Shown here in pieces: positions 3,601 to 6,635 of a DNA stretch of 64,000 nt. Made by a program: the position numbers and the translations under genes. The first letter of the stretch is position 1. Each line of letters begins with the position of its first letter. The notes beneath the pieces are model-generated. The model made no database searches. It was not told the DNA's origin and was given only the letters and a program-made list of their open reading frames with translations. Location: positions 26,319,083 to 26,383,082 of the forward strand of contig NC_084671.1 of NCBI RefSeq assembly GCF_028389875.1, in the 5' to 3' direction. Origin of the DNA: Rhea pennata (taxonomy: Eukaryota > Chordata > Aves > Rheiformes > Rheidae).

Positions 3601-6600
3601 ACAGGTCAGAAATCGCTATTCCTTTATTTCCCTTATCACACTTGATTGCCTTCTAAAATTACCATTGCTCACTGTGTAAGGATACCTACAAAATTTCATT
3701 TTTTTTCTTGCAGCTCTGGTGGTCAGACTCCTCGAAGGGACCTGGAGAAGGTGTTAACAGGAGAGGAAAAGTAGGTTGAGTTTTGTTGTTAAGCTTTTTT
3801 TTGTGTGTGTGTGTGTGATTAGGGTAAAAGAGAAGTATTTTAGCGGCGTTAACAATATGCGATTGTTTTGTGGTTTTAAAGGCAGGGCTATGTACTTTGT
3901 TTCAGCAGAGGAACACACTATTTTTGCTTCTGTTTAAGACTTCTGACAGCAGCATTTTTTTTTTTTTCAGGGCACTCCGACCTGGGGACCCTGGATTCTG
4001 TGCCCGTGCAAGGGTGCCAATGCCCTCCAACAAGGACTACGTGGTCAGGCCAAAGTGGAATGTGGAAATGGAGTCCTCCAGGGTAAGCACTGTGGACCGA
4101 CACTATCTGTGGTTAAGCCTGGGAATCTTTGTCGCCTTAATACTGCTGTTACTCTACAGTAGAGCACTTCTTTTCATGTGCTGTTTCTAATTTGAGTAGA
4201 CTGTAAGTTCAGCTGTCAAGTGGGCTATGTTAAGCCCATCAAATTCCTTCACTCAGGTATCATTGCTTCTCTTATAGAACAATTAAAACCTTTTTCTGAT
4301 ATCAAGGCTGAGAGTCTGATTGAAGGCCTCTTACTTGAAGCATTTTGAAATAAAGTAGTAATTTGATCAGTCTGTCACTGATACTTTTATACCTTTTTTT
4401 TTGTATCATATTCTTCTCATAATATTCCAGGGGAAACATCCCAAAGTTTTGGTAAGAGTTAACAGCTTCAGTGGAGGCCTATGCCTTGCTTTGATTCATC
4501 CACCTACTGTGTACATATAATCTAAAGGCAGAGTACATGGCAAAACGTGTAAATAGAAGTAATGAAACTGTGCTCTTTCTGCTGTTATCTTTCCTTCCTT
4601 GCATTAATTGAGATATTGTTTCTAGCCCGGGACTATTAAGAGAGGTATTAGTCGCTTGGAAAAGCACAAGAGACGGTTTGCTGAACAGAAACGACTCAGC
4701 AAAGTACATCGAGCCATCAAGTTCAGCATTGAAGGCAACAGGATGCCCCTGTAGCCATGACACTCTGCCTTCCTCAAGTTTGAGAGGTATCCCTCGAGGG
4801 AGGTGTGAACAGTGCATGTGCTTCAGCTGTTGGCAGTTTGCACACATAGGAGAGGAGTGTGTATCCCCCACCTTAAACTTGGAAACCTCTCCTTGTATTC
4901 CCTAATGTCTGTACTTTGACCTCAAAGGGAACATGTACAGGAGAAAATACGCTGTAACGTGTAACATCTACCATGATATCTGCCTCTGCAACTTCAGGGT
5001 ACCCAAATGACAGGTATTAAATGAAAATACCTGCACTCAAAAATAGCTTTGAATCTGTGATGTGAATGCTTGACAGATAAGCAAGTCTAGCCTTGTGAAA
5101 CTTCTTAATCAGGCTTTTCAGATTTACCTGAACTGATGGACAGGAATTCTCAGCCCTTAGTATAGTACCTCGTGTCACTGTATACTAACCTCCGTGGCTG
5201 ATGTTTTACTGGTACAAACAAGACGAAAATATTTTTCAGGCCTACTTTTCCCAGGAATTTAAGTTATGTGAGACATTAGGGGGTGGCTGACAGCAGGTAG
5301 AGAATGAGACCTCTGAAGATTTGAGGGAGAAGAATCCCCTGCTGTGAATGCGGGGTGGAGGGAAATGGATCAGTGATACGTATCAGTGTAAGAATTGTTT
5401 CGACAACTTCTAGTCTGCATTTCAGTTCTGTGAGCAGGGGTGTCACAAATAGTAGATTGTTGTTGATATTAAGCTTCATATTTATTTATAAATCATTTTT
5501 TAAATCACTGTGAAATTCCAGTTACAGTTCCAGTAAATAGTTCTCTGTTTTATGGATAAAGCTCACTTTTAAATCAGTGTGTTGGGAGCTCCTTCTCCAG
5601 AGATGGGAACAAGAGATTCAGATTCTAAAATAGGTTTTTGTCAGATACCAAGTAGCATATTTTGGATATCTCTGTTTTTTTCCCAAACTTAAAACATGTA
5701 AAATTTCCAATATTCACTTTTTTTTCTGTTGTTTAGTGTGGGAAATTGGTTTCTAGGAAGTATTGACTATGGATTGAAAGTACCTTACCTTACTGTTTGT
5801 CTTCAGTGGTGTTCCTCTATAGAATCACTATAAAATCTGTGCAAAATACCTGCTGCATCATCTCAGTTTTTCAGCTGCAGTTAAACAAAATACAGAAATG
5901 AAATGCAATAACTCTTGTAATAATTTGTAAGGTCAGATTTCTTCAAAATTTCTTTTGCTTCCCTCATCGCTTCCTTTTTTATTTTTTTTTTTTTCAATGA
6001 TCTTTCTTTCTGTAAGTACTAGTCAGTGGCCTTTAAAATAAATTACAATTTGGAATTGATATGTCAACTTAATCCAACTTGATTACTGTGTGGTCAAATC
6101 TAAACATTTTCCATCCTCAGGAGGCCTGTATGTATGACACTGTAGTAAAGTGCATTTCTGACACTAAGCTCCAGTCAATATAGATATTAGAACTGTTCCA
6201 AACTGTGTATTCAGCCAGATGTAAACAACTAACATGGTTATGTTAACCGCTGTAATCTGAAAGCTTTACTGTGTGATGTTTGTGAGTGTGACTGTGTCCA
6301 TAAATGCGATGCATATATTGGGGAAACTGTTTATCCTCTTGGGGGGCGGGGGGGGGGGGGGGACAGGCACAAAAAGAAGTTGGAAATCAGCAGTGACTTC
6401 ATCAGATCCCTGTTGCTGGTTTAACCTTTCATGTATCACTTCTCTTGAGCCTCTGGGGCGTCTGCTTTTTTTTCAGGGGTAATTATTAGTTTTATTTTTT
6501 AAGTTCCAGGGGACCTCTAAGAAAGGGGTGAGTCGGCTGGACAAACAGATGCGGAAATTCACAGATATCAGGAAAAAAAGCAGATCGGCCCATGCGGTGA

Positions 6601-6635
6601 AAATCAGCATTGAGGGCAATAAGATGCCATTGTGA
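570..6635 (+). CDS. IWS1: IWS1, 3' half (7 to 8 exons, 5' end outside window)
   Basis: IWS1 (Spn1) binds SPT6 on elongating RNA polymerase II and helps recruit mRNA export and chromatin factors in the nucleus. Joined exons are 570-652, 909-1038, 2505-2622, 3405-3516, 3714-3770 and 3971-4082, followed by either 4626-4754 or 6504-6635. Each has AG/GT borders and the phases join without a break. The translation covers the TFIIS N-terminal-like helical domain (first three exons, with [19 protein letters not shown]) and the conserved tail ([38 protein letters not shown]). This matches the vertebrate IWS1 C-terminus as I remember it. The acidic N-terminal repeats lie upstream of the window. The odd point is two alternative stop-containing exons, both read in the same phase. 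The gene converges on the minus-strand protease gene downstream. Confidence 0.95.
909..1038 (+). CDS. IWS1: IWS1 exon: core of the TFIIS N-like domain
   Basis: The acceptor is ctttctag and the donor gtttga is weak. It encodes [20 protein letters not shown] and then [20 protein letters not shown], strongly conserved helices of IWS1. It ends in phase 0. Confidence 0.93.
2505..2622 (+). CDS. IWS1: IWS1 exon: end of the TFIIS N-like domain
   Basis: The acceptor is atcttccag and the donor is gtatgt. It encodes [20 protein letters not shown] and then [19 protein letters not shown]. It ends in phase 1. Confidence 0.93.
3405..3516 (+). CDS. IWS1: IWS1 exon: [10 protein letters not shown] segment
   Basis: The acceptor follows a run of about 23 T. 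The exon encodes [20 protein letters not shown] and then [17 protein letters not shown], the linker just after the helical domain. It ends in phase 2 at a gtagaa donor. Confidence 0.93.
3714..3770 (+). CDS. IWS1: IWS1 exon: small linker
   Basis: The acceptor is ttcttgcag and the donor is gtaggt. It encodes [18 protein letters not shown]. This is a 57-base exon ending in phase 2; the codon AAG is completed in the next exon. Confidence 0.92.
3971..4082 (+). CDS. IWS1: IWS1 exon: last shared exon before the alternative ends
   Basis: The acceptor is tttttttcag and the donor is gtaagc. It encodes [20 protein letters not shown] and then [17 protein letters not shown]. It ends in phase 0, so either downstream terminal exon can follow it in frame. 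Confidence 0.93.
4626..4754 (+). CDS. IWS1: IWS1 alternative last exon A (proximal)
   Basis: The acceptor is gatattgtttctag and the reading frame runs to TAG at 4752-4754. It encodes 42 residues: [20 protein letters not shown], then [20 protein letters not shown], then PL. Over 41 positions, without gaps, 21 match exon B at 6504-6635, including the closing SIEGN-x-MPL. Both follow the phase-0 donor at 4083. The frame is intact and the protein signature is kept, so I read it as a duplicated, mutually exclusive terminal exon and not a pseudo-exon. I do not recall this version in the reference human protein, so its use is inferred. Confidence 0.75.
   Translation, partial: PGTIKRGISRLEKHKRRFAEQKRLSKVHRAIKFSIEGNRMPL
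5016..5021 (+). terminator. IWS1: Candidate poly(A) signal ATTAAA for the exon A transcript
   Basis: ATTAAA lies about 260 bases after the exon A stop. It is the first plausible hexamer in the region and would give a short 3' UTR. It is weak evidence alone, because the motif is common. Confidence 0.3.
6504..6635 (+). CDS. IWS1: IWS1 last exon B (distal, canonical)
   Basis: The acceptor is tttattttttaag, and the exon opens with TTC CAG GGG, giving [20 protein letters not shown], then [20 protein letters not shown], then MPL and TGA. The FQ-x-TSKKG start agrees with the vertebrate IWS1 end as I remember it, which decides this acceptor over the ttccag six bases later. The exon encodes 43 residues plus the stop. 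Confidence 0.92.

Follow-up and report, generated by a model that had tools for sequence, protein, structure and literature searches.

A putative ancient, maintained tandem duplication of the last coding exon of IWS1 in Rhea pennata, with a predicted alternative Pol II-docking module

Tandem duplicated last exons are a known class. A survey of human tandem duplicated exon substitution counts 236 events spread over 214 genes, and 77 of these events swap the C-terminus (PMC9741552). The IWS1 locus of Rhea pennata resembles this class in having homologous exons adjacent in one gene, behind a common upstream donor and in the same phase, with key residues kept, disordered residues changed and an old divergence. 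It also differs from the class. IWS1 is a core Pol II elongation factor, whereas the survey reports an enrichment for ion channels and for genes that are tissue-specific. Its events also reflect either-or use in transcripts, and for the IWS1 pair such use is predicted from genomic sequence. The main text of that survey, as distinct from its supplements, does not name IWS1, nor does the main text of PMC4465641; in the text of PMC7019016 that was covered, IWS1 is mentioned once, in an unrelated connection. U2AF1, which acts generally in RNA processing and likewise has two alternative exons that are homologous, offers a further likeness, but its isoforms were reported from experiments (PMC6821156), whereas the IWS1 pair is read from DNA.

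Published work describes IWS1 as a global Pol II elongation factor that requires its last 34-40 residues for docking and stimulation (PMC12368070, PMC13175633). In cryo-EM structures, residues 786/787-819 of human IWS1 bind the RPB1 jaw and cleft: a helix of residues 787-795 sits on the jaw, the stretch 805-819 runs into the Pol II cleft next to the downstream DNA, and R787, K790, R793, K794, K809 and K816 lie near DNA (PMC12368070, PMC13175633). A human construct ending at residue 786 (1-786) gives only a very faint signal of binding to the elongation complex and does not stimulate, and stimulation is also absent when the last 40 residues are cut off (PMC12368070, PMC13175633). The two reports disagree on whether the segment stimulates directly or mainly recruits IWS1 (PMC12368070, PMC13175633). 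The word isoform is absent from the main text of PMC13175633, and a literature search by titles and abstract openings found no description of a second IWS1 tail; automatic genome annotation may already list such an isoform.

The window, the whole stretch of 64,000 nucleotides analysed (C9:26319083-26383082, from a genome of 1.27 Gb in 180 contigs), starts within IWS1. The upstream exons encode the protein from the TND core through the ELOF1 belt, and Pfam PF08711 (TND, Med26-type core) scores above its cut-off at C9:26321587-26321706. Joined to the distal tail, the six upstream exons agree near residue for residue with human IWS1 574-819 (247 residues, E 1.7e-153). The gene is assigned to IWS1/Spn1 on its TND core followed by conserved C-terminal segments. 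In the 22 kb upstream there are open frames that are acidic in the manner of the IWS1 N-terminus, together with a candidate start, MESEYYGGDQS. The features at the 3' end of the gene are as follows, with a slash marking each exon-intron boundary.

About 570-652, 909-1038, 2505-2622, 3405-3516, 3714-3770 and 3971-4082, plus strand: six upstream IWS1 exons in the window, from the joined translation
4080-4088, plus strand: shared donor AGG/GTAAGC, phase 0, score 8.8 with a splice matrix
4566-4605, plus strand: C/U-rich stretch, 78% pyrimidine, spanning bases 60 to 21 ahead of the proximal acceptor, with TTAAT, which resembles a branch point, at its end
4626-4754, plus strand: coding part of the putative proximal alternative last exon, TAG stop, with variant jaw helix, linker and cleft tail
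4803-4808, plus strand: candidate donor GAG/GTGTGA, score 7.2, exon end 4802, 48 nt past the proximal stop
5016-5021, plus strand: candidate poly(A) signal ATTAAA of the proximal exon, a hexamer expected about once in the stretch (hand estimate)
6504-6635, plus strand: coding part of the distal last exon, TGA stop, orthologue of the human tail 777-819
6886-6891, plus strand: distal-exon poly(A) signal AATAAA, followed by a G/T-rich stretch

An earlier sequence-only reading of this DNA had placed two stop-ended exons behind the same phase-0 donor, and this arrangement holds, with the donor after 4082 and the exons at 4626-4754 and 6504-6635. Coding sequence before the shared donor ends in SSR (MESSR; last base 4082), and both exons join in frame to this upstream exon, each with a stop of its own. 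Because the proximal exon carries a stop, the two coding tails would be exclusive in any one protein, and its use would give IWS1 two C-termini. An ungapped recount returned the same identity as the earlier reading, 21/41 residues, over nucleotides that have indeed diverged (72/123 bases identical). When one tail is searched against the window by tblastn, the other is recovered at E 8e-12 and the next match at E 0.25, leaving no third copy of comparable strength in the window. The local alignment score of the two exon DNAs is reached by 0/500 mononucleotide shuffles. On these grounds the proximal and distal exons are homologous. The distal tail was correctly recognised as the known vertebrate form, matching human IWS1 777-819 at 41/43 residues.

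A retrocopy or processed pseudogene was considered and rejected as the source of the proximal exon, as the bases preceding 4626 are an intronic acceptor without SSR-coding sequence. When the upstream exon joined to the proximal tail was searched against the genome, 3 of the 5 candidates scored were matches at E up to 10, all at this locus, and tblastn confirmed no relative among 5 pattern matches in viral_contigs and 97 in genome_contigs. Homology of the flanks is marginal at 300 bases, where 9/500 (intron) and 20/500 (3'UTR) shuffles reach the score, and at 150 bases 130/500 and 148/500 do so; these were mononucleotide shuffles on T-rich DNA, and the flank result counts neither for nor against duplication.

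The terminal-exon boundary, at human F777, falls just ahead of the docking module; exon choice would therefore swap the module whole. The human module seen in the structures (PMC12368070, PMC13175633) corresponds to the distal exon at 41/43 residues. The proximal exon differs from it at 4/9 helix, 8/9 linker and 5/15 tail positions, with the six DNA-facing basic residues and the tail motif kept. Compared directly with the distal exon, the proximal one is changed at the same numbers of positions in these three parts and at 3/8 before the helix, and the changes cluster in linker 796-804 (8/9 vs 12/32 elsewhere, Fisher p 0.009). The proximal helix reads RLEKHKRRF, with M792K and Q791H, M792 being hydrophobic; the linker reads AEQKRLSKV vs distal TDIRKKSRS, I798 having become Q. 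The changes at M792 and I798 count against the reading favoured below. At the six DNA-facing positions the proximal exon has R, K, R, R, K and R, all basic.

Both tails retain the motif SIEGN-x-MPL, as the earlier reading had observed. Spn1 of K. phaffii (7xn7 chain) ends in ...ISIEGRGLP, SAKKGGISIEGRGLP, in alignment with IWS1, which suggests that the tail motif common to both exons is older than animals, although PMC13175633 describes yeast Spn1 as being without the cleft-tail region. The proximal tail had been called far more basic than the distal, a description that the counts do not bear out: net charge is +10 vs +9, and K+R 13 vs 12, over the 41 aligned residues. With so small a gap (only +10 vs +9), charge was discarded as the point of the duplication.

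By the splice matrix used here, 41/4912 plus-strand GT sites in the window score as high as the shared donor, itself counted. The proximal acceptor, TTTCTAG/CCC, had been described as good; at a score of 3.0 in this matrix, it is the weakest of eight IWS1 acceptors scored. The six upstream acceptors score 6.8-13.9 and the distal exon 5.1 (6504) and 10.0 (6510), and 929/4601 plus-strand AGs in the window score as high as the proximal one. The second distal acceptor is in frame, with 6510 as first base (TTCCAG/GGG), and its use would drop the residues FQ. The absence of the FQ start from the proximal tail was rightly noted: by eye, the proximal acceptor aligns with the distal inner AG before 6510, and descent from that inner acceptor best explains the missing FQ, ahead of erosion.

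The C/U stretch upstream of the proximal acceptor is a possible regulatory tract; 54/2377 overlapping 40-mers of the intron reach 78% pyrimidine, the stretch itself included. Splicing motifs were scanned for as well: a single TGC stands at 4600, ahead of the proximal acceptor, and a single TGCATG at 4813, which is suggestive only. Taken as a whole, the proximal acceptor looks weak and regulated. The strongest acceptor-like site of the last intron lies elsewhere, just ahead of the distal exon (score 11.8, first exon base 6477); used in frame, it would end IWS1 immediately (GGG TAA), without the docking module. A branch-point-like GTAAT is visible by eye just after this site, the strict pattern having given only TTTAT, nearer the exon, and the placement of GTAAT would let the splicing machinery skip site 6477.

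The proximal 3' end has two candidates that yield the same protein: the ATTAAA at 5016, or onward splicing from the donor after 4802. The hexamer proposed earlier as a poly(A) site does exist, but its presence carries little weight, about one being expected there by chance. The donor after 4802 is the top-scoring donor between 4640 and 5300. Its use would make 4626-4802 a cassette exon spliced to the distal exon, with an unchanged protein and the distal 3' end. The stop would then precede the junction by 48 nt, close to the distance limit for nonsense-mediated decay, and inclusion might tune the amount of IWS1, instead of or besides its tail. A score of 7.2 or more is, however, reached by 113/4912 GT sites in the window, and selection on the amino-acid sequence (below) points to the protein tail itself mattering; we hold the cassette arrangement to be quite unlikely.

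Between the two exons, silent sites are saturated and replacement sites are not: NG86 gives pS 0.84, pN 0.30 and dN 0.38, LWL85 gives dS 1.70, and 13/21 identical residues use different codons. Because the distal exon is itself strongly constrained, at 41/43 residues as in human, the proximal branch was tested separately, in a codon model of two branches in which distal omega was set to 0.01 or 0.05 and kappa to 2 or 4. If both branches are given the same length, neutrality on the proximal one fits worse, by 2dlnL 10.9, 11.6, 13.6 and 14.3, and under a clock the model thus rejects neutral evolution of the proximal exon.

When branch lengths are free, a neutral proximal branch is permitted only at a length near zero; by this model, death of the exon could be very recent but not old. 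The duplicate may then have been used for most of its history and have lost splicing in this lineage, leaving a fresh relic. Unequal branch lengths with a neutral proximal branch near 0 fit equally well, and the weak proximal acceptor speaks for such a loss, but the frame, the stop, the acceptor AG and the contact residues are all intact. We consider recent death of the exon unlikely.

A duplicate that was never functional, open by chance and free of selection throughout, would face the clock-neutral rejection directly. Chance alone could preserve the frame, since 41 codons stay stop-free in 20-34% of neutral runs at branch lengths 0.5-1.0. In these simulations the distal exon mutated neutrally along one branch and took silent changes alone along the other, with 20,000 runs at each of seven branch lengths from 0.2 to 1.0. 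A joint match to a stop-free frame, at most 20 residue changes and the observed silent divergence, by contrast, occurs in no more than 0.32% of runs at any length. In a second set of 4000 stop-free neutral exons with exactly 20 changes each, the observed BLOSUM62 sum is attained in 32 and the observed number of kept basic residues in 71; all six DNA-facing positions are still basic in 189, and 25 keep these six together with the three acidic residues. Two measures are unremarkable by themselves: the acidic residues alone are all kept in 602/4000, and the 10/20 conservative changes of the proximal exon are reached in 355/4000. An origin as a never-functional relic is already disfavoured, and we judge it very improbable.

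The proposal of an old, maintained duplication has thus held up, on silent sites saturated while 21/41 residues are identical, on the rejection of clock-like neutrality and on the retained contact residues. A one-omega profile puts the total neutral distance at no less than about 1.7 (kappa 2) to 2.6 (kappa 4) substitutions/site, the bound being a 1.92 drop in lnL interpolated from a grid; with 41 codons and about 26 synonymous sites, such distances are imprecise. A neutral distance of at least about 1.7/site implies that the duplication is old. The neutral rate in birds is about 2e-9 per site per year, at which the duplication would have an age of some 400 million years or more, and even at double this rate it would predate crown birds.

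An ancient, maintained tandem duplication of the C-terminal exon, giving IWS1 an alternative Pol II-docking module, is probably the correct account of the locus; the two exons, their homology, the lasting constraint and the kept residues are shown, and for the proximal exon we infer splicing, a protein and a functional difference. On this account an old tandem duplication copied the last coding exon with its tail, stop and acceptor, and neither copy was lost. Choice of 4626 or 6504 after the common donor would produce two IWS1 proteins, the same up to MESSR and differing only in their grip on Pol II. As the DNA-facing basic residues and the C-terminal anchor are kept and the helix middle and nearly the whole linker are changed, the proximal tail should still dock, but its affinity, its residence time or how it competes with the other proteins that bind the jaw (RECQL5, ELOA, UVSSA) should be altered. 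From its weak acceptor and the C/U tract ahead of it, the proximal exon is predicted to be used at a low level or in certain tissues only.

If the proximal exon is spliced in, this vertebrate may make a second IWS1 form with a different polymerase-gripping tail. A maintained duplicate of exactly the docking residues would mean that evolution kept two Pol II grips in one gene, and the proximal exon would then offer structure-function studies a naturally occurring version of the docking module that selection has already tested. The pair of tails also points to where tissue-specific Pol II elongation complexes may be sought in vertebrates.

The arrangement invites a further speculation. Where a weak upstream last exon competes with a downstream one, the general view is that slow Pol II favours the upstream exon, and the two last exons here lie about 1.9 kb apart. 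IWS1 sets Pol II speed (PMC12368070). The proximal exon could then be a self-sensing switch, in which low IWS1 activity raises the alternative-tail IWS1, a second form that would be vertebrate-wide, make other jaw and linker contacts, and be harder to displace from the jaw or less in need of ELOF1. Such a form would have been overlooked because structural work used one human tail only. We regard this extension as a long shot.

The window holds further features. Two trypsin-domain open frames are on the minus strand, one at 31160-31888 that is closest to protein C (1aut, E 2e-66) and one at 10169-10759 that is closest to factor Xa/IXa (1kig, E 6e-49), and the interval from IWS1 to PROC may therefore contain a second protease gene of the vitamin K-dependent type. 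A 242-residue open frame on the minus strand (22413-23138), situated between the two protease frames, carries repeated AGQN-containing units; it has no Pfam match at E 0.001 and is possibly an expanded activation-peptide region. Positions 11800-20018 form a degenerate G/T-rich tandem repeat of about 8 kb (period 14, 581 copies, 58% matches), which yields spurious open frames of up to 1322 residues.
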